Positions 38,551 through 49,424 of a DNA stretch of 64,000 nt are shown here, one piece after another. How positions within the stretch are numbered: position 1 is the first letter of the stretch; the number at the start of each line of letters is the position of its first letter. Below the pieces are notes generated by a model, which had not been told where the DNA came from, made no database searches, and saw only the letters and a list, made by a program, of their open reading frames with translations. The DNA lies in contig JARYLZ010000008.1 in NCBI GenBank assembly GCA_029907355.1, positions 1-64,000 on the forward strand, given 5' to 3'. The translations under genes were made by a program, and so were the position numbers. Source of the DNA: Bacteroidota bacterium (lineage in GTDB: Bacteria > Bacteroidota > Ignavibacteria > SZUA-365).

Positions 38551-39465
38551 TCAGTGAAGAAGGAAAGGCTCTTCGTTCAGCAAGCGCATCTGTGCGAGGA
38601 GTGCACGCATCATGTCGCGGTATTCTTCGACATCGGGGGCGAGGCGAACCGTTTCGCGGTAGGCACGGAAAGCGTCCTCGCAAAGCCCTTTCCTCTCGAA
38701 GTAAATCCCGTGGATCAACTGGCGTGTCACGTCGTCCGCGTTCATGGCGGTCAATTCCCGGTCGAGGGATTCCACCTCGCGTTCGATCGCCGACACCGTG
38801 TCCGGGGGGAGGAGCGAGAAGGTCTGGATGTTCGACACTTCCCCGTCCGTCAGGCGCGTGATCTGCCAGTGGTACACGCCCGGACCGGGGATGACCCCGT
38901 TCGGGATACGGGCCGCGAAACCGCTCCCCTCCACGCTCCAGCGCTGGACGATCTGAAAGTTGTCATCGAGGACGAGGATCTCGTATCGGCCGGCGGAATC
39001 CGTATCGATCCATGTGAAAGTCGGCTGGGCCGTCATGATCGCGCGCGTGGGGAAGACCGCGCTGAACACCGCCTGCTCGCCCCGCACGGCGCCGTATTCA
39101 CCCCCTTCGCGTTTCGTCTTCGTCCGCGAAATCTGCGCGGCGGCGTACTGGAGGATTTTCCCCGCCGCTCCTTCGCCGCTTCCCGCAATCGGTCCCTGCA
39201 GGAACTCCGCGAGCGGCTTTGTCGTGTTTTCGTCCACGCTCACGAGGCGGTCTTCGTTCATCATCAGCTTGACGTAGCTGGCGTACGATGTACGGATGAT
39301 ATCCTTCTTCCCCAGCACCATGCCGACCGTGATGCGCTTCCAGTTCTTGCCCTTGGACATGACCTCCACTCTCCCCCGCAGGCTCATCACGATGAAGGAG
39401 TCCTGTGCCTGGAGGCATACCGTCAACAAGCACCCAGCTATCAACCACAGACCGATCGTTCGCAT
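38551..39465 (-). CDS. FecR-like secreted protein (1)
   Basis: The listed ORF is 373 aa; the ATG at 39465 (MRTIGLWLIAG) has a strong AAGGAG 6 nt upstream and begins a signal peptide (TVCLQAQ), giving 304 aa. Residues about 20-90 look like a FecR domain (FIVMSLRGRVEVMSKGKNW, GKKDIIRTSYASYVKLMM). The middle part (FTWIDTDSAGRYEILVLDD) resembles an Ig/fibronectin-like fold and the end is helical, TPR-like (FERKGLCEDAFRAYRETVRL). It is a paralogue of the next gene upstream. It is probably periplasmic; FecR-type domains often stand beside CHASE2 proteins, as here. Confidence 0.78.
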   Translation of the reverse strand: MRTIGLWLIAGCLLTVCLQAQDSFIVMSLRGRVEVMSKGKNWKRITVGMVLGKKDIIRTSYASYVKLMMNEDRLVSVDENTTKPLAEFLQGPIAGSGEGAAGKILQYAAAQISRTKTKREGGEYGAVRGEQAVFSAVFPTRAIMTAQPTFTWIDTDSAGRYEILVLDDNFQIVQRWSVEGSGFAARIPNGVIPGPGVYHWQITRLTDGEVSNIQTFSLLPPDTVSAIEREVESLDRELTAMNADDVTRQLIHGIYFERKGLCEDAFRAYRETVRLAPDVEEYRDMMRALLAQMRLLNEEPFLLH

Positions 39466-39860
39466 GTTCGCTCCTTGATCCGAGTTTGACAGGGGAAAAT
39501 ATATGCTTTGAGCGTGTCGTTCAATACGCCGGTGTCGAGCGGCGAATCCCCATCCGGCAAAATCCCCGGTCATCCACGTCCACCGAACGAGTCGGAAACT
39601 CCCCGCGCGGAATCGACGACGAAGACGGTTCCCGCACGTGTTCCGATCGTGCAGTCGCGCCATCGAAAGCACATGATCGGGAGACAGGACCGGTCGATTC
39701 GGTGCTGTTACGCTTCCTTCGTGTCTCTCATCATTGACCCCCTTTGCTCCGTGACCAACGGCCGGTAGCAGCTCATCCCGCTGTCGGACATTTCAAAATC
39801 GATCGTATATGCCGTTTCGAGCGATGGATGATCCCCGCCGCCGGGGGGGACGGAATCCGT
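39466..39860. other. Intergenic spacer between the two FecR-like genes
   Basis: This 395-bp stretch sits between two same-strand paralogues. No convincing ORF was seen. It holds a good promoter and ribosome-binding site for the downstream paralogue, so that gene and glmU-like/rsmB may have their own transcription start. Confidence 0.5.
39496..39524 (-). promoter_or_regulatory. Bacteroidota-type promoter before FecR-like gene 1
   Basis: Minus strand: TTG, an 18-nt spacer, then TATATTTT (TAnnTTTG with one mismatch), followed by AAGGAG six bases before the ATG at 39465. Confidence 0.5.
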
Positions 39861-40775
39861 TCACCGGATGAGGAACGGCGTCACCCATTGCAGGCGGATA
39901 TCGGCGAGGTAGTGGATGAGCATCGCACGGAACACCGTCGCCTCGGGGGCGGCTTGCATCGCTTCGCGGTATGCATGGAACGCTTCCTGCCGCAGGTTTC
40001 TCCCCTCGTATACTGCCGCCTTGAGAAGTGCTCCGATAACCGTGTCGTCCGCGCCCGGCATGCGCCCCAGCGCTTCGATCTCCGCTTCGACGGCCTGGAT
40101 GGTATCCGCTTCGAGAACGTGGAACGAACAGATGTTGCTCGTCTCGCCGTCCCGGAGACGGACCACCTGCCAGTGATACCGTTTCCCCCGATCGAGCAGC
40201 GAATCCCCCCGGCCGGAGGCATACAGCCCGCCGGGGAAGACGAACCTACCGAGCAACGAGAAATCCTCGCGGAGAAGGATGCATTCATACACGCCCGCCG
40301 TATCCGTGTCCACCCATTCGAAGGTCGGGCGTCTCGAGAGCGTCGTGCCTTCCGGGAACAGCGCTTCGAAAACGGATGCCGCGCGGACGCCGGCCTCCAC
40401 ACCGGCTCTCGCACTCCCGGCCCTGCCGATACGTCTCTCCAATGCGCGAAGCACCCGCGCTTCTTCCCCTCCGACGCCGAAGTCGTGGGCCGTCTCAAGG
40501 TCCGCGAGGCGGCGCGAGGTGCGTTCTTCGATGGCGACAAGGCGGCACCCGCCGACGAGGAGTTTCACGGAACTCCCGTACCCGGTCCGCATCCTCGTGC
40601 CCGGCCCGAAGCGGTCCCCGACGTGCACCACCCTCGCCTTCGAGCCCGGCATAGTTGTCGCCGTGACCTTGCCGCGCACGCTCACGACGAGGAATGAGTC
40701 CTGCGGTGGTGCAACCGGGCTGTCGGGGCGGAACACAGCCGCCGCGACGAGAACGCAGGACAGCGGGAGAGTCAT
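39861..40775 (-). CDS. FecR-like secreted protein (2)
   Basis: The start at 40775 (MTLPLSCVLVAAAV) overlaps the CHASE2-protein stop as ATGA, giving 304 aa, the same length as its paralogue downstream. After a signal peptide it has the FecR-like strand pattern (FLVVSVRGKVTATTMPGSK, PGTRMRTGYGSSVKLLVGGC), an Ig-like middle with FEWVDTDTAGVYECILL and YHWQVVRLRDGETSNICSF, and a helical end (NLRQEAFHAYREAMQAAPEA). The two paralogues are divergent in sequence but share the order of all segments. The tight coupling to the CHASE2 gene suggests a shared envelope-sensing role. Confidence 0.78.
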   Translation of the reverse strand: MTLPLSCVLVAAAVFRPDSPVAPPQDSFLVVSVRGKVTATTMPGSKARVVHVGDRFGPGTRMRTGYGSSVKLLVGGCRLVAIEERTSRRLADLETAHDFGVGGEEARVLRALERRIGRAGSARAGVEAGVRAASVFEALFPEGTTLSRRPTFEWVDTDTAGVYECILLREDFSLLGRFVFPGGLYASGRGDSLLDRGKRYHWQVVRLRDGETSNICSFHVLEADTIQAVEAEIEALGRMPGADDTVIGALLKAAVYEGRNLRQEAFHAYREAMQAAPEATVFRAMLIHYLADIRLQWVTPFLIR

Positions 40776-42859
40776 GCGTCGCTCGCCCGTGTGAACGCTG
40801 CGATGCGGGTCCCTTCGGACAGGCGTTCGAGCATTCGGATGACGCGGTCCGGGAGCACGGGTTCGCACGCGACGGTGTCCCCCGCGTAGATGGGGAAAGG
40901 GGGCAATGCGAATTGCCGCGGCACGCGCCCGTGGAAAACGAAGAGTTCTTCGCGCCGGTGCAGTTTACACTCCCCGATGACGCAGAACGGTTCGAGCGGG
41001 AGTGCGCCGTCGGTCCGCGGCCCACCGACGGCATGGGTATCGCCGGGAACAGCCGCCTCGACCGTCGTCGCGAGAGGGATGCCGCCCGGGTAGGTGACAA
41101 GCAAAGTTTTGCCGTCTTCGATCTTCGGCCGCACGATAGTGCTCGCGAGGTACGGCCGAAGCGTTTTGAAGAACATTCTGAGGATATGCGGGAGGAGAAT
41201 CTCCCATTCCTCGAAGTAGAAGAACTCGTTGTAACGCGGGGATTGTGTGGAGAGCAACAGGTCGCGCACACTGCACTCGCGCATGAACTGCCGCTTTCGA
41301 CCCTCGAGGAACTGGAGGAAATACCGGCGATGCATTGCGCCTGTTTCCCCGCTCGAGAAACAGTCTTCGATCTCCGGAATGAGCGCGCGCCATGTTTCCA
41401 CCGTGGGGTTTTCCCATGACGGCGGCAAGGGGACGCCGTCCCGGAGACACGAAGCCGCACGGACGGCAAACGCGTATTGAATCAGCGATTGCGCCGCGTG
41501 GAGCGTCCTGATGTGAGCGGGGAAAGAGTCGGGGTCTTCGAACGCTTCGTGCAGGCGGCGGGCGACGGGGTGACTTGTCTTCCGGAGCAATGCCGCCGCG
41601 CGGGCGCGGAGGAGGCGGAAACGGAGCGTGTTCGTGAGCGCGTTCGCCGGGATGAAAAGCAGGACAGCGGTGGCGGAGAGGTTGTATGCGATCTTGACGT
41701 GGAAGAAGAAAAACGCGATGATCGGGAGGAAGAACACGATGATCGTCTCGATGACCAGTGTCGCGGAAATGAGGGTCGCCAGGCCGGCCCGGGATGTCGT
41801 CTTGGTCCTCAGCACGCGGTACAGGGCGATGCTCAGGTAGGAAAGGACGAATGGGATCGCCCAATCGACGAGGGGAGGGACGGAACGGATGAATCGGTGC
41901 TTGAGAACCATGTCGACGATATTCGCATGGATCACGATCCCCGACATGTCCGGCCCCTTCAGGCCGACCTTCCTCCCGAGCGGCGTTTCGTGCGTGTCCA
42001 AGAGGAAAGAAAACCCTTCGTCGTTCACGTAACCGACGAGTACGATGGACCCCTCGAACATGCGCCGGTAGACGGCATCCAACGCCGGCGGGGCTGCGAG
42101 CACGTCGTCGATCGCGAGCGGCACGAACTGCTGGTATTCCTGTCCGCCGTAGCGGGGCAGGTACGTGCCCGAATAGTGGATGATCTGGGGCTGTTCCCCT
42201 TCCGCGAGGATCGGGGAAACCAACGCGCTGTCGTACAGCGCCACTACTTGGATCGCGAGCGAGAGCACGCGCTTGCCTTCGATCGTCCGGTACGGCCAGA
42301 AGCGGCGCACGACGCCGTCGTCGTCCCGGATCATATTCGCGTATCCCGTCACGGGGTGGACGGAATCGATTCTCGGGTCGAGCGTGATGCTGGGCTTGAG
42401 CGTAGCGGCATCGAAGCCGGTCGCGAGGACGACGTTCCGGTTGTCGCGCAATGCCGCTGCGAGGGAGTCGATCTCGGCCAGCCGGTCCTCCGGGTAGAGG
42501 TCGACGTGTTCACGGTCGAAGAAGACGTCGATCCCGATGACGCGGGCGCCGTAGGCGTTCAGCTTCCGGATCAGCCGCGCGATTTTCCCGTCGGGCACGG
42601 GGGCGACGTCGCGGATGTTCAGGAGGCGTATGCGCGGATCGGCGTACTCCATGTCCTTGATCGCGAATATCGCGTCGAGGCTCACGTCCTCGATGTTCAG
42701 GAAATCGATGCGGTCGAAGATGGGGTTCAGGAACGAGGTCTCGTCCGCCTCGGGCAGATTGTCCGAGAGGAAACCGAGCGCCGCTATCATCAGGAGAACG
42801 AGCACCGATGCCACCGCGTACTCGATGTTCAGGAAATATCGGAGGAACGCCTTTTTCAT
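40772..42859 (-). CDS. CHASE2-domain membrane protein with uncharacterised C-terminal output region
   Basis: This 695-aa protein has one N-terminal membrane helix, then an extracytoplasmic CHASE2 domain from about residue 40 to 330 (RIRLLNIRD, YGARVIGIDVFFDREH, YANMIRDDDGVVRRFWPY, GSIVLVGYV, HANIVDMVL), then three membrane helices near 335-430. CHASE2 is a sensor domain usually joined to adenylate cyclase, kinase or GGDEF domains. Here none of these is visible: the last 250 residues (VARRLHEAFEDPDSFPAHIR ... YNEFFYFEEWEILLPH) match no output domain I know. It is coupled by ATGA to a FecR-like gene. The ligand and output are unknown. Confidence 0.8.
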   Translation of the reverse strand: MKKAFLRYFLNIEYAVASVLVLLMIAALGFLSDNLPEADETSFLNPIFDRIDFLNIEDVSLDAIFAIKDMEYADPRIRLLNIRDVAPVPDGKIARLIRKLNAYGARVIGIDVFFDREHVDLYPEDRLAEIDSLAAALRDNRNVVLATGFDAATLKPSITLDPRIDSVHPVTGYANMIRDDDGVVRRFWPYRTIEGKRVLSLAIQVVALYDSALVSPILAEGEQPQIIHYSGTYLPRYGGQEYQQFVPLAIDDVLAAPPALDAVYRRMFEGSIVLVGYVNDEGFSFLLDTHETPLGRKVGLKGPDMSGIVIHANIVDMVLKHRFIRSVPPLVDWAIPFVLSYLSIALYRVLRTKTTSRAGLATLISATLVIETIIVFFLPIIAFFFFHVKIAYNLSATAVLLFIPANALTNTLRFRLLRARAAALLRKTSHPVARRLHEAFEDPDSFPAHIRTLHAAQSLIQYAFAVRAASCLRDGVPLPPSWENPTVETWRALIPEIEDCFSSGETGAMHRRYFLQFLEGRKRQFMRECSVRDLLLSTQSPRYNEFFYFEEWEILLPHILRMFFKTLRPYLASTIVRPKIEDGKTLLVTYPGGIPLATTVEAAVPGDTHAVGGPRTDGALPLEPFCVIGECKLHRREELFVFHGRVPRQFALPPFPIYAGDTVACEPVLPDRVIRMLERLSEGTRIAAFTRASDA

Positions 42860-42939: not shown

Positions 42940-45900
42940 TCAACGGTCGGAGAGGTCGAAACCGAAGAGAACGCCCACGTACCATTTCCATTCCTTCCCG
43001 TACGTGACGGGCCGGAAATCGAAGGAGCGCGTGAACGGCGTGAGACCGTACGCCCCGCTGAAGAACACCCGTGTCGGGTAGAGCGAGAACGAGAATGACT
43101 CGAGGCGCAATTCGAATCCGACATCCTGCTTGACGTTCCGGATCGTCAGCTCTTCGGACCGCATGGCCGCATCCCCCGCATCGTAGAACACGCCGCCGTA
43201 GAGTTTATCGAAGAGGATGTGCCCGACACGGAAATCCATGCTCGGGATGATGGGGAACCGGTACGTGACGCCGACATGGTACAGCTCGTTCCCGCCGAGG
43301 GCATAGTACGTGTACCCTTGCATGCCGGTGATCCCCCCGCCGTAGAAGTTGAAGAACTCGTCGACGGGTTCGCCGAGAATCGTGCCGGCGCGGAGACGCA
43401 GCGAAAACGTGTGCGACAGACCGGGGATGCGGGTCGCTGCCGTCATCGTCCCCTCCAGCCGATGGAACGTATAACGCGTGTACCGGGGCACGAGCATCCC
43501 CGTCGACGCATCGTAATCGTAATCCCCGTTCGGGTTGAACCGGTTGAACTCGAAATCGTAATAGAAACCGACGCGAATGCCTGTGGGGTTGATTTCGGCG
43601 TCGCGGGTCGGGTTGACGTCGTGGTGGCGAATCGCGACATGGAGATTGTTCCCGATCAGGTACAGGTTGTCGCGTGCGGCCACGAGCTGGTCGGTGTCGG
43701 GGTTCCGGAAACTCCCGATCGTGCTCGTGTAACGGCTGTGGCGGTACCCGGCCTCCAGCCGCGTCTTATTGGAGAACAGGTTGTGCCGCACCGTCACGGC
43801 GAATTCCAGCAGGTTGAACGACACGCCCACGGACATCGTGTCGAGCGGCAACGCGAGGATCGACGTGGTTTTCCGCGTGACGTTCGCGATGTCGAACGAC
43901 AGGTCGGGGTAAATGCCCAGGGACCCGAGCAGGGGCAGGCGGTCGCGGTAGGTGAACGAGGCGAAGAGATCGCGTTCGAGCCTGCTGTTGACCGCCGCAC
44001 TCCCCATCATCTCGATCCGTCCGAGGATGTCACTGGAGAAGAACATCACACCCGGCTTGAGGAACTGGAGGCCGCGGTTGTCGGGATTGTACGTGTCGAC
44101 GCGGAGGAAGGGGAAGAGCATCATGCTCTGGAAAATGTTCCGGTACGGTCTGGCCGTCGTCTCGGGCAGGCGCGTGTCGTCGAAATCCCGAAGCGCTTCC
44201 CAGTCCCATTCCTCGTCTCGGTTCAATGGGGGGACGAGCGGTGATTCGGGGATGTAGTCGCCGATTTCACCGCGGAGAGGCTCCGCGCTCTCGAGGAGGG
44301 CGAGTTTGTAGCCGTCTGCCGTGTACATCGCATACGCGACGGACCCCGACGCGTCCACCGACGGCATGAATGCGCCGCCGATACAGTTCGTGACCTGCTC
44401 GACGGTCCCCGTCGCCGACTCGTAGCGGTATACGTTGAAAATCCCCGTTCGATCCGAGACGTAGTACAGATACCGGCCGTCCGGGCTGTACGTAGGATCG
44501 CGGAAATCCGCTGTGACGCCCGAGATGAATTCCCGGAAATTGTTCCCGTCGGCGTCGACTCGCGCGATGCGCCGCCGGCCGCGGTCCGCGTACCCGAAGA
44601 CGAGATGGGAACCGTCCGGGGCCCACGCGGGGGTGAATACCTGTTCCCCGTTCGCGAACGCCGTGAGGGGGCGTATGTTCCCCCCATCCGCATCGACGAG
44701 GCAGACGTTCATCGTGCCGTCTTTCGTCGTCACGAATGCGATGCTCTTCCCGTCCGGGGAACAGGCGGGGTTCGAGGCGCGCAAACCGTGCGTCAGCCTG
44801 CGCTCCGACCGTGAGGCGACATCGTATTCGTAGAGGTCGGTGAAGAGATGCCCGTACACCGACGGCGTGTTGTACCTGCCGTAGACGATCTTCTTCCCGT
44901 CCGGTGACCATGACAACGTCGACCGCACGCCTCCGGCGACCGCTTCCTCCGTGCCGGTGCGCCGATCGTACAGGTACACGCCCGCACGGCTGAAGAAGTC
45001 TTCGTCCTTGGTGGAAAGGTAGGCGATGCGCGATCCGTCGGGGGAAAAGGCCGGGTGGAGGTTCCCGAAACCCTTCGCGCCGATCACGCGCCCTTCCCTG
45101 CGGGTGCGGAGAACGGGCTCGATGCGGCGCGCGTAATCCTCCCGGAGATGCGAGCGCCATGCGCGGTACAGCGAGTCGCCGCTGATCCCGAGAACGCGCC
45201 CGATGGCCGCATCGACGGTGAAGACGAACGGTTCCGACAGGGCGCGCGTGATGGCCGGGAGAGCGTTCCTGCCGTACGTCGCGGCGATGAAGCGCGTCAG
45301 GTTGTACCCCGCGTTGTACACGCTTTCGTTGCCGAGGCTCGTCTTCCCGAAAGCGCTCATCTCCGGCCAGCTCAGCATCGAGTCGGAAAGCACGTAACAG
45401 CGGAGGATCATGTCCCGGTGGCTGTCCCAGTGCTCGTAACCGAATTCCGGCCTCTGGTACTGCGCCGTCCCCTCGGCCAGCCAGGGGGGGACGACGACGC
45501 CCGGAATGGGGTAGGAAACGAGCAGGTTCGGGAAGCCATACAACACGTCCTTCCTTCGCTCCTCCTCGTACCCGAACCATTGCAGAGTCATCGCGGGAAC
45601 ACGCCGTCCCCATTTCATCGCGGCCTGGAGCTGGATGATATGGGTGTACTCGTGGGGAATGACGTTCCGCAGCCAGTTGTGCGTCCCCCGCAGCTCGAAA
45701 TCCAGCGGCGACGCCCAAATCTCGATCTTGTTGTTGAAGAAGTAAGCAGCCCCGTTCGAGTAATCGCTGATATCCTTGATGAAGATATGGACCTTCGTGT
45801 CCGGCACATGGCCGTACAGAGCCGTGATGGGACCGTGGATCTCCTCCGCGATTTTCGCGGCCGCCCGTGCGGTGCGTTCCGCGCCCTCGTGGTAACTCAC

Positions 45901-46092
45901 CGTGAAATGTTTCGTCTCGATCGTGTACCAGCGGAATTCCGGAGCCGAATACTGGTCGGGTTGCGCGGCGAGGGGGAGGGACACGCCACACAACAAAGCC
46001 ACGACCGCGCCCGCCCACCGCGCGGCGGGAGAACTCTGCCTTGCCCCTCTGCGTCCGCGATACGATGTGCGCCCCGTGGGTAGCCCTCTCAT
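42940..46092 (-). CDS. Gluzincin-type peptidase / PD40 propeller / outer-membrane barrel fusion
   Basis: The start at 46092 (MRGLPTGRTS) overlaps the upstream stop as ATGA and gives 1050 aa; the listed ORF is longer by a shadow. After a signal peptide (PLAAQPD) comes a peptidase-MA-like domain with the zinc motif HEYTH at residues 147-151 and a downstream WLAEGTAQY glutamate near 207. Residues about 340-620 carry TolB/PD40 repeats (NLHPAFSPDGSRIAYLS, SPDGKKIVYG, PTYSPDGRYLYYVSD). The remaining 400 residues form a barrel like bacterial surface antigens (GGITGMQGYTYYALGG, YVGVLFGFDLSDR). It would sit in the outer membrane with propeller and protease in the periplasm or outside. Substrate unknown. 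Confidence 0.85.
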   Translation of the reverse strand: MRGLPTGRTSYRGRRGARQSSPAARWAGAVVALLCGVSLPLAAQPDQYSAPEFRWYTIETKHFTVSYHEGAERTARAAAKIAEEIHGPITALYGHVPDTKVHIFIKDISDYSNGAAYFFNNKIEIWASPLDFELRGTHNWLRNVIPHEYTHIIQLQAAMKWGRRVPAMTLQWFGYEEERRKDVLYGFPNLLVSYPIPGVVVPPWLAEGTAQYQRPEFGYEHWDSHRDMILRCYVLSDSMLSWPEMSAFGKTSLGNESVYNAGYNLTRFIAATYGRNALPAITRALSEPFVFTVDAAIGRVLGISGDSLYRAWRSHLREDYARRIEPVLRTRREGRVIGAKGFGNLHPAFSPDGSRIAYLSTKDEDFFSRAGVYLYDRRTGTEEAVAGGVRSTLSWSPDGKKIVYGRYNTPSVYGHLFTDLYEYDVASRSERRLTHGLRASNPACSPDGKSIAFVTTKDGTMNVCLVDADGGNIRPLTAFANGEQVFTPAWAPDGSHLVFGYADRGRRRIARVDADGNNFREFISGVTADFRDPTYSPDGRYLYYVSDRTGIFNVYRYESATGTVEQVTNCIGGAFMPSVDASGSVAYAMYTADGYKLALLESAEPLRGEIGDYIPESPLVPPLNRDEEWDWEALRDFDDTRLPETTARPYRNIFQSMMLFPFLRVDTYNPDNRGLQFLKPGVMFFSSDILGRIEMMGSAAVNSRLERDLFASFTYRDRLPLLGSLGIYPDLSFDIANVTRKTTSILALPLDTMSVGVSFNLLEFAVTVRHNLFSNKTRLEAGYRHSRYTSTIGSFRNPDTDQLVAARDNLYLIGNNLHVAIRHHDVNPTRDAEINPTGIRVGFYYDFEFNRFNPNGDYDYDASTGMLVPRYTRYTFHRLEGTMTAATRIPGLSHTFSLRLRAGTILGEPVDEFFNFYGGGITGMQGYTYYALGGNELYHVGVTYRFPIIPSMDFRVGHILFDKLYGGVFYDAGDAAMRSEELTIRNVKQDVGFELRLESFSFSLYPTRVFFSGAYGLTPFTRSFDFRPVTYGKEWKWYVGVLFGFDLSDR

Positions 46093-49000
46093 TTCACCAC
46101 GGCGATCTTGATGATTTTCTCCCCGCTCCCCCCTGCACCGACCGCCTTGACGTGTCCGAGATAGACGCCGCTCTCGACGGAGGAAACGTCCCAGTCGACC
46201 TCGTTGTCGAGTCCTCCCATCGCGCGCGCAGCGAGACGCGCCACCCGAACGCCGGACTGGTCGTAGATGTTCACTGTGACGTCCGCGTCCGTGGACACGT
46301 AGAAACGGATTTTCGTGACGGCATCGTAGACGGGGTTCGGCCAATTGTAACACCGCTCGGCGGGAAAGAACACGTTCCGCGTGAACGGCACGGCTCCGGA
46401 ATGCTCAGCCCGGTTGGTGTGGCGTGAGTCCCCGTCCCTTCCTCTCCACATGAGGCCGACGTCGTGGATGACGTTCCGCGTGCGGAAGAGATACACCATG
46501 CCGTCCGCTCCGGCGACGGCGATGCCCAGCACCGACGCGTCGTCTTCCCGCAGCGGAAGGAGCACGACCGATGCTTCCGCGGGGAGAGGAACGGGAAAGC
46601 CCTCCGCCTGCACGGCACCTGTACGGAGCTGAGAGAGGAGACCTTCCCCGACGACGAAGAGCGCGTCGCGCGTATCGCCCGCCAGCCGCGCTGCGAGCGT
46701 ATACCGCGCCGGCACGTTCGTGGGGTAATGGTCCGTCGAGGAAAAAGCCGCGTTGACGGCGTGAACCGATGCGCTGTCCGCAATGAGGATGTCGCAGCGC
46801 CCGTCCCCGTCCGCATCCGCGCCCGCGAGGGCAGGGCTTGCGGACCGGATGGGAATCATCGGGCAGCCCGAAGCGTCGGCTGTTCCCTGCCCCGCGAGAA
46901 CGGCCGTCAAGCTCCCGTTGAGGGAAACCCCTTCGCTGTGCCCGTCCCCGTCGATATCGGCGGTGATGCAGTTCCCCGACCGCCCTGAAGCGGCTGTAGA
47001 GCGCCGCGCCGGGTATCGAACCCTCCCGTCCGCGAGGTCCACCACGGCGCCGTTCTCGAGAAAGACCGCCGAGTCGCCGAGGAAGGCGAGAGACGTGTTT
47101 TCCCCCTCGAGCGGAATGTGCATATCGCGTGCGGGGCAATGGAGCGTGTCACCGCTCGGCCCCGTCGTGAGGTAGACGAGATCCCGCACCAGCATGAACC
47201 AGGAAGAGCGTGCGTTCCGCACGGCCGAAAGGGGGAGGTCGATGCGCCCGAGCCCATCGAAGCGCTTGTCACCATCCCCATCCGTCGTCGAGAAGACGAC
47301 GAGTGCGAGTTCCGTGCCGTCCGTGCAGGGGACGACGAGCACAGGATGGTCGTGTGCTGTGACACGCCCGACGAGCGGTCCCCTCAAAACGCTGCGCATG
47401 CCCGGCACTTCGGCAACGAGTGCGGTCCCGGCCCGTGGAATGAGCGGGGACGCGTCGCGGTGGAAACCGAACACGCGCACCGTGTCTCCATCCGCGTGGC
47501 ATCCCGCAGCGGCGAAGATTTCCTCTCCGCCGTCGCCGTCGATGTCGTAGGTTTCGACGGAAAACCCGTCTGTCTCTCCCGTGAAATGCGGTTTGAGATC
47601 CACCGGCCAGCCGGGTTCGAGGGAGAACGCCTCGTCCCCCAGTGCGATATCGACCGACATGACCGGGCCGGGGACGTCGAAGTTGTCCATCGTCACGTGC
47701 GTGTGTGCGCCGTTGTTCGCCCGCGTATCCGGTGCGGTCGTTGCGCCGAAACGATTCTCGTAGAGCGGCGAGATGTTCCCGCTGAACCAATAATCGAGCG
47801 GCGTGCCTTTTCCGATTTCCGACCCGAAGATCGACGCGATCGTCTCGCCGATATCCTGCGGTCCCGCCGCCTGCTCGAGGTCCACGCCGCGCCGCTTCGG
47901 GTCCGCGTTGACGGTGTTGTCCGCCATGCCGGCTTCGATGACGGTTTCATCGATGTGCCAGATGAGGATGCCGCCGCCGACGCGCACTTCCTTCCCGCCG
48001 CTGATCACCCGCCCTCCCGGCAGGCTCCAGTCGAGATCCTCGACATCGACAACGACCCCTTTCAGTGCCGACACATCGGTCTCGTTGAAGCCCGTCGTGT
48101 CCTTGGGGAAACGGAGTTCGACGTCCTGCCCCCCCACGCGCATCACGATCCGCTGCCCGTTGCCGCCGGGGTCGCGCTGCCTGTTCTCGAGCAGCCAGTA
48201 CTCCGTGCCCGTTACGGGCACCCGGAGAAGATCCGGGGTAGATGGTTGGTCGGTCCTCGATGCGGTGATGGAATACGTTCGTTTCCCGGCTTCCGCTTCC
48301 CGGGGTACCGCCCACCCGAGGAATCGCTTCTCCCATGCCGATGGTGCGGGTGGACAGATCCCGTTGAAAGCGAAGATCGACTCCGTATCCATCAACCCGA
48401 ACCGCCCGATCCCGGTCCTCCCGCGTTTCGTGTCGAAGAGATCCGGTAGCCCTGCATACGTGCCGAAACTCGCCGCCAACAACCCGTTGATGCTCAGCTC
48501 CCACAGGGCTTTCTGACCCGTGATGAGCGATATCTCCCGCGTTTCCGTGCACGGCATGATCGAGGTGTTCGTGATGCGGAACGTCCCTCCCTCCACAGGG
48601 ATGCCGTTGAACTCCGCGCCGAAATGTTTCCGGAATTCCTCGAGCCTGAACGAGAGCGAAGGGATGTCGAACGGCGTCGGGTCCACTCCCTCGTAGCTCG
48701 CCATGTCTACGTCGCGACCCCGGCCTGCATGGAAGACGATGAACATATCCCATTGGGAGAAATCCGTTTCCGGCATCGTGCTGTCCGCCGCGGTCCATGC
48801 GTCGAACGCCAGTTCGGCGACCGGCTTCGCGCTTTCCCCCTTTCGGTAACTGTAATCGCGGATGCGTTTCGGGACCGTGACGACCTTCTCGAGCACGTGG
48901 GAACGGACGGCGGTCCTCCCGCTCGAGGCTTTCGCGACGTAGTTTTCGAGGAAGCGGAGGTGCGCCTGGAAATACGCGCGGTCGTGGGGGTATGGGTCGA

Positions 49001-49292
49001 TGATTTCCCCGCCGTAATCGTATGTGAACACCGTCCCGAACTTGCCCGTCCCGCTTGTCCTCGGATCATCGTCGCTTTGGAACTCGACCATCACCGCAAG
49101 GACGCGGACCGTATCCGGTAGTGCCCGATGCACGTTCCCGGATTCCCGTGGCGCCCCCCCACTCAGGCCGTGATCGAAGAGGGGTTTCCTCGTCGTCTCC
49201 TTCAAGCCCTGGGCTCGGGCGGGAAGCGTCAGGAGAATGGGAAACGCGAGGACGGTCCCCAGTCGGAACAGCCCTGCTCGTGTCGTCGTCAT
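46089..49292 (-). CDS. M6-like (immune inhibitor A) secreted protein with missing zinc motif and T9SS sorting domain
   Basis: The start at 49292 (MTTTRAGLFR) precedes a signal peptide (LTLPARAQ) and gives 1067 aa. The N-terminal 430 residues have the layout of M6 metallopeptidases: VRVLAVMVEFQSDD, later GLPDLFDTKRG...IGRFGLMDTES and PSAWEKRFLGW, then GGGILIWHIDE. In active M6 enzymes HEFGH stands just before GLPDL; here that position reads ASFGT (residues 274-278), so both zinc histidines and the catalytic glutamate are absent. The middle has FG-GAP/VCBS-like repeats (DIDGDGHSEGV, DADGDGRCDIL). The end (YNWPNPVYDAVTKIRFY ... ESGVYLGHVKAV) is a T9SS sorting domain. It is likely a binding protein rather than a protease. 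Confidence 0.82.
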   Translation of the reverse strand: MTTTRAGLFRLGTVLAFPILLTLPARAQGLKETTRKPLFDHGLSGGAPRESGNVHRALPDTVRVLAVMVEFQSDDDPRTSGTGKFGTVFTYDYGGEIIDPYPHDRAYFQAHLRFLENYVAKASSGRTAVRSHVLEKVVTVPKRIRDYSYRKGESAKPVAELAFDAWTAADSTMPETDFSQWDMFIVFHAGRGRDVDMASYEGVDPTPFDIPSLSFRLEEFRKHFGAEFNGIPVEGGTFRITNTSIMPCTETREISLITGQKALWELSINGLLAASFGTYAGLPDLFDTKRGRTGIGRFGLMDTESIFAFNGICPPAPSAWEKRFLGWAVPREAEAGKRTYSITASRTDQPSTPDLLRVPVTGTEYWLLENRQRDPGGNGQRIVMRVGGQDVELRFPKDTTGFNETDVSALKGVVVDVEDLDWSLPGGRVISGGKEVRVGGGILIWHIDETVIEAGMADNTVNADPKRRGVDLEQAAGPQDIGETIASIFGSEIGKGTPLDYWFSGNISPLYENRFGATTAPDTRANNGAHTHVTMDNFDVPGPVMSVDIALGDEAFSLEPGWPVDLKPHFTGETDGFSVETYDIDGDGGEEIFAAAGCHADGDTVRVFGFHRDASPLIPRAGTALVAEVPGMRSVLRGPLVGRVTAHDHPVLVVPCTDGTELALVVFSTTDGDGDKRFDGLGRIDLPLSAVRNARSSWFMLVRDLVYLTTGPSGDTLHCPARDMHIPLEGENTSLAFLGDSAVFLENGAVVDLADGRVRYPARRSTAASGRSGNCITADIDGDGHSEGVSLNGSLTAVLAGQGTADASGCPMIPIRSASPALAGADADGDGRCDILIADSASVHAVNAAFSSTDHYPTNVPARYTLAARLAGDTRDALFVVGEGLLSQLRTGAVQAEGFPVPLPAEASVVLLPLREDDASVLGIAVAGADGMVYLFRTRNVIHDVGLMWRGRDGDSRHTNRAEHSGAVPFTRNVFFPAERCYNWPNPVYDAVTKIRFYVSTDADVTVNIYDQSGVRVARLAARAMGGLDNEVDWDVSSVESGVYLGHVKAVGAGGSGEKIIKIAVVK

Positions 49293-49424
49293 TCGCCTCT
49301 CACACGGGTGGGTGAATGGAACGCGCGAAGGGGGAAGCGGTCGGAGACGATCCCCCACGCCCCGAAACGGTGCGGGCGAAGACCGCGGGACACCTTTCCG
49401 TGCGCTCGTTCCCTGCCTGCCGCC

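Follow-up and report, generated by a model that had tools for sequence, protein, structure and literature searches.

The window analysed here, a 64,000-nucleotide stretch of one contig of a Bacteroidota bacterium, carries on its minus strand, in this order, genes for an M6-like T9SS protein, a peptidase-MA/TolB-propeller protein, a CHASE2 protein and two secreted proteins (F1 and F2), followed by a GlmU-like gene. The CHASE2 gene (40772..42859, minus strand; 15 full-length orthologues) encodes 695 aa, and its sensor domain matches PF05226 at residues 86-343 (41831..42604, minus strand; E=4.3e-33) with 115.4 bits against a curated cut-off of 26.3; PF05226 was matched by 17/17 members of this CHASE2 family. 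A search of the whole 3.25-Mb source genome showed that this is its sole CHASE2 gene. Hydropathy peaks at residues 14-32, 327-345, 368-386 and 390-408 correspond to one transmembrane (TM) helix before the domain and three after it, with a further peak (201-219) inside the domain itself. The predicted layout thus runs from TM1 (~14-32) through a periplasmic CHASE2 domain and three TMs (~327-408) to a cytoplasmic C-terminal region. The CHASE2 stop shares an ATGA with the start of F1 (40775-40772), and F1 (39861..40775, minus strand) is followed by F2 (38551..39465, minus strand). Both encode 304 aa when counted from the signal-peptide methionine, ORF listings with GTG starts being longer, and both have signal-peptide-like starts, with 34% identity between them. 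The preliminary description of this DNA, which had proposed a CHASE2 sensor overlapping the first of two secreted genes of equal length, was therefore borne out on these points.

F1, F2 and their homologues represent a protein type that we call A3, made of a FecR-like N-domain, an FnIII domain and a TPR part. The AlphaFold2 (AF2) model of F2 (pLDDT 81, pTM 0.78) presents, in order, a signal helix, an all-beta N-domain, a helix, a beta-sandwich and TPR-like helices. In a Foldseek search, the middle domain matched the FnIII structure 3d1m_C (E=9e-4, rmsd 2.8, TM 0.73 by target), and the A3 C-terminus, including that of F2, gave profile matches to TPR proteins. Direct family searches with F1, F2 and homologues returned DUF7354, DUF928 and TPR matches, all below threshold. 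PF04773 (FecR) matched neither F1, F2 nor 14 homologues, and in the genome search F1 and F2 stayed without a match at a cut-off as loose as E<10. The designation "FecR-like", used from the outset, is nonetheless partly justified, in that positions 1-132 of the extended A3 profile match L227:6088-6765 (E=3e-12), whose product is a true PF04773 protein (E=3.2e-12). Because the link to PF04773 runs through this profile match, it is indirect, and we retain the term as an acceptable description of what the sequences suggest and not as family membership. Neither FecI nor FecA was among the syntenic neighbours identified in this block.

We explored the conservation of this arrangement within the order by six-frame searches, which recovered full-length CHASE2 homologues, C-terminal region included, in 14 further genomes (11 from f1, the family of the source genome, and 3 from f3), with 40-54% identity of CHASE2 across genomes of the order; no homologue was found in one f2 genome (74% complete). 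A3 adjoins CHASE2 in 15/15 genomes of the order that carry the CHASE2 gene, and the overlap between the two genes is usually 4 bp in family f1. The 14 relatives have a single A3 copy beside CHASE2, interrupted by the contig end in one of them (L041). The CHASE2-FecR-FecR neighbourhood that had been proposed consequently holds as a CHASE2-A3 pair throughout these genomes, and as pairs and fusions elsewhere, but not as a triplet: the second copy beside CHASE2 is, as read from the sequences, a lineage-specific duplication that among the genomes of the order occurs in the source genome only. F2 is the closest to the relatives' single copy (56% identity to that of G001), and in the tree F1 pairs with F2 (support 86/70), the F1 branch being very long (2.49 vs 0.16). 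The best reading of F1 is a duplicate of F2 that evolves fast, although its placement is unsure because of this long branch. F1 evolves far faster than F2, yet it occupies the ancestral site beside CHASE2. A tandem duplication carrying the CHASE2 3' end was rejected, the 395-bp gap between F1 and F2 (39466..39860, minus strand) containing no remnant of a second CHASE2 3' end.

The wider block of M6-like, MA/propeller, CHASE2 and A3 genes, mostly followed by GlmU and NSUN, is syntenic where contigs suffice; in two genomes (G001 and G004) GlmU and NSUN are missing at that place. As the synteny of the MA/propeller, GlmU and NSUN genes shows, this lineage in general rearranges its genes slowly, which counts against the module reading. 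CHASE2 followed by A3 is more than a chance arrangement, being found in every CHASE2-bearing genome of the order and in 29/29 adjacent pairs from other families. The upstream neighbour of CHASE2 (42940..46353, minus strand), syntenic in the order, combines a peptidase-MA-like part (Peptidase_MA_2), a TolB/PD40 propeller (PD40) and a C-terminal part that appears from its sequence to be an outer-membrane barrel; it is a possible partner of the module. A promoter and terminator scan stayed at shuffle level and was uninformative. An anti-phage defence module was also considered and set aside, PADLOC giving no match for the proteins of the window.

Adjacent CHASE2 and A3 genes, or a single fusion protein, occur in roughly seven families of the class. 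In dozens of loci from sister families, CHASE2 proteins without an output domain sit directly upstream of A3, and such output-less CHASE2 is the commoner A3 partner outside this order. The closest CHASE2 proteins elsewhere in the class have about 390-440 aa and mostly end no more than ~30 residues past the profile end or last TM region. All nine output-less loci found via CHASE2 have an A3 gene directly downstream (in one, L110, an A3-type N-domain only). Reciprocally, the adjacent pairs found via A3 in other families (29/29) have CHASE2 first and A3 second, many of them overlapping by 4 bp. In two f17 genomes, CHASE2 and A3 form one continuous ORF of 755 aa (L215:4779-7046) or 750 aa (L217:5133-7385), with an extra hydrophobic segment at the junction (residues 414-432 and 409-427, respectively) replacing the A3 signal peptide. 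This extra TM would keep the A3 part in the periplasm, and the fusion therefore supports a shared periplasmic complex. A partial literature search found no published description of the output-less CHASE2-A3 pair.

These loci vary in their further content. Two CHASE2 genes precede one to four A3 genes in f21, and in L185, L186 and L187 both CHASE2 genes and four tandem A3 genes lie in one run. A3 genes of f24 mostly have no adjacent CHASE2, some of them lying close to contig ends. In one f24 genome (G155), the product of L110:4758-6704 combines in one protein an A3-type N-domain, a caspase (Peptidase_C14, E=3e-16) and a predicted outer-membrane (OM) beta-barrel, and is encoded directly downstream of an output-less CHASE2 gene. 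Families f22, f26 and f11 have in common a papain-like/DUF4384 gene and two others; a papain-like peptidase gene with a weak DUF4384 match lies directly 3' of CHASE2-A3 in f22 and f26 (L108:2491-3870 and L109:3506-4870). No gene beyond the pair was common to the output-less loci of most families, and a separate shared output gene beside output-less CHASE2-A3 was accordingly discarded across most families.

Three published systems resemble the locus in part. In the Burkholderia BiofilmReg operon, a FecR-LysM protein accompanies a CHASE2 histidine kinase (PMC5192318). As here, the gene of a secreted FecR-domain (here FecR-like) protein neighbours that of a CHASE2 receptor whose sensor domain is preceded by one TM and followed by three; in contrast, that system has a kinase output and a response regulator, both absent here, its partner carries LysM where ours has FnIII and TPR without LysM, and its gene order is the reverse. 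The Campylobacterota CHASE2 adenylate cyclase cluster, with a phosphodiesterase, a FecR protein and a TPR protein (PMC9239204), likewise unites CHASE2, FecR-domain (here FecR-like) and TPR elements. It differs in having a cyclase output and phosphodiesterase in place of an orphan output, and in that FecR and TPR are separate proteins, whereas here both parts lie in one. MtxA of Magnetospirillum, an Ig-like and TPR protein whose gene is followed by a CHASE2-cyclase gene (PMC4439547, PDB 4Z29), appears to share with A3 the secreted Ig/FnIII plus TPR architecture adjoining a CHASE2 gene, but that system has a cyclase output, absent here. The A3 profile gave a suggestive but weak collinear match to MtxA (positions 27-288, E=0.095), which did not recur among the matches listed with the larger profile; homology by sequence is tentative at most. 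Closer by, cyclase-length CHASE2 proteins of the same class or phylum (L120, L121, L123, L124 and L227) are encoded a few kb from FecR or A3-N-domain genes. These loci resemble ours in placing CHASE2 within a few kb of a FecR gene, there a true PF04773 member, but FecR is not adjacent, CHASE2 is longer and the partner has no FnIII/TPR part. The CHASE2-FecR association as such is thus already published (PMC5192318; PMC9239204), and this confines the novelty of the envelope-sensing module put forward in the preliminary description to the output domain, the output-less versions and the fusions, which are new; its role in envelope sensing is one that we infer.

The C-terminal region of the CHASE2 protein (residues 408-695; 40775..41638, minus strand) is an orphan. 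Pfam, PDB sequence and PDB fold searches identified no recognised output domain (cyclase, kinase or GGDEF) in the CHASE2 protein, and an NCBIfam search for a known output domain was also negative. For residues 408-695, Pfam gave no match in the window protein and isolated chance-level matches only across the 15 orthologues, and comparison with PDB sequences gave nothing meaningful; a flavodoxin assignment (phmmer E=0.29) was dismissed as chance. Structure prediction of residues 430-695, most of this region, had been named beforehand as a check. From a shallow alignment (15 rows, all from one order), AF2 produced a confident model (pLDDT 86.5, pTM 0.87) with helices through the first ~160 residues, followed by an eight-strand beta-rich domain, which subdivides the region into a helical part (~408-571) and a beta-rich domain (~574-669). 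Fold searches with this model gave a best E of 0.32 against the PDB and of 0.12 against the viral BFVD; every match had a low probability, and the top ones also a low TM. The expectation that this part matches no known output therefore stood: neither its sequence nor its predicted fold is that of a known cyclase, kinase, GGDEF or phosphatase. A partial literature search likewise found no description of the domain.

Across the 15 orthologues, 21 columns of the C-terminal domain are invariant, including C631, H634, E638, C665 and P667. The motif C-x-(L/V/I)-H ... E-x-F ... Y-x-G-x4-C-x-P (C631, H634, C665, P667; 40859..40969, minus strand) is invariant in 17 sequences, and our guess is that it could be a metal or redox site. 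CHASE2 proteins of f5, a further family of this class, have the terminal motif too (hhalign E=1.9e-4, probability 48%, 51 columns). Among 391 genomes of the class, significant motif matches were confined to CHASE2 proteins of f1, f3 and f5, and neither the C-terminal domain nor the mini-motif gave a significant match outside CHASE2 proteins. Since f5 genomes contain the motif and no A3 at E<1e-5, the C-terminal add-on and A3 are separable.

Comparison of these genomes makes the binary CHASE2-A3 module well supported. Gene pairing, ATGA-type overlaps, fusions, predicted topology, the conservation of the C-terminal region with its Cys/His residues and the lack of a known output fold are read directly from sequence, and a physical CHASE2-A3 complex in this species is what we infer. 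We put about even trust in the reading that CHASE2 and A3 constitute one envelope module, with A3 as periplasmic co-sensor and the C-terminal domain as a new output or adaptor in this order. More tentatively, the two proteins may each contribute half of an envelope complex that is widespread and does its core work without a cytoplasmic enzyme; on its CHASE2 component, the order of the window and f5 would have evolved a previously undescribed output/adaptor domain with a Cys-His-Cys site. Periplasmic A3 would dock on the CHASE2 domain and bind an envelope or outer-membrane signal, whose nature we can only guess; the four transmembrane helices would then convey the state of the complex to the cytoplasmic region, where the helical bundle and Cys/His beta-domain, non-enzymatic in appearance, might serve as an adaptor or a metal/redox-dependent output for a separate effector. 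Since output-less CHASE2 is the commoner A3 partner outside the order, the function that these pairs share may be something other than cytoplasmic signalling, perhaps a structural one.

As an extracellular sensor domain, CHASE2 is widespread in bacteria. What it recognises has been stated as not known (PMC5192318), and a conserved periplasmic partner, naturally fused to CHASE2, allows a test of whether CHASE2 senses by way of a protein co-receptor and not a small ligand. Moreover, versions without an output cast doubt on the view that CHASE2 invariably drives an enzyme in the cytoplasm, and the orphan C-terminal domain is a candidate new output type.

The same output-less proteins would also fit an envelope scaffold in place of a signalling receptor. 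CHASE2 would then be a membrane anchor on which A3 is displayed or assembled, in the service of envelope structure or of protein handling, and the C-terminal domain would do no more than link the complex to a partner in the cytoplasm. Most A3-partner CHASE2 proteins stop no more than 30 aa after the last TM region, the fused proteins also have no output, and output-less loci include the caspase and predicted OM barrel fusion and those continuing with papain-like peptidase/DUF4384 genes. We nevertheless consider this scaffold unlikely, because CHASE2 proteins elsewhere in the class or phylum are long enough for nucleotide cyclase domains, and as read from sequence (L049 and L050) appear to end in them, and because the output region here is long, conserved and, in its model, confidently folded. 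Considerably less probable is an ordinary receptor with a highly diverged enzymatic output, such as an unrecognised phosphatase, phosphodiesterase or nucleotide-binding enzyme: enzymatic outputs are normal for CHASE2 proteins and the conserved Cys, His and Glu of the beta-domain could be catalytic, but the model predicts a helical bundle and small beta-domain that lack an alpha/beta core of the GGDEF, cyclase or HATPase kind, without a PDB fold match at E<0.3 or a Pfam family beyond chance in the orthologues.

The outer-membrane barrel NsrA is reported to work through CHASE2 cyclases in Sinorhizobium (PMC13001267). A similar relay here, with the upstream MA-peptidase/propeller/barrel protein receiving the signal, A3 as periplasmic link and CHASE2 as inner-membrane receptor, would agree with that cooperation and with the upstream gene adjoining CHASE2 in all relatives of the order, but we judge it the least probable reading, as output-less CHASE2-A3 loci of other families have no such gene in common and GlmU and NSUN are nearly as syntenic, which makes synteny alone weak evidence. 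Finally, the M6-like gene beyond this neighbour (46089-49358, minus strand) encodes a T9SS-dependent M6-like inactivated metalloprotease (NF052323, E=4e-221), which makes a type IX secretion system probable in this organism.
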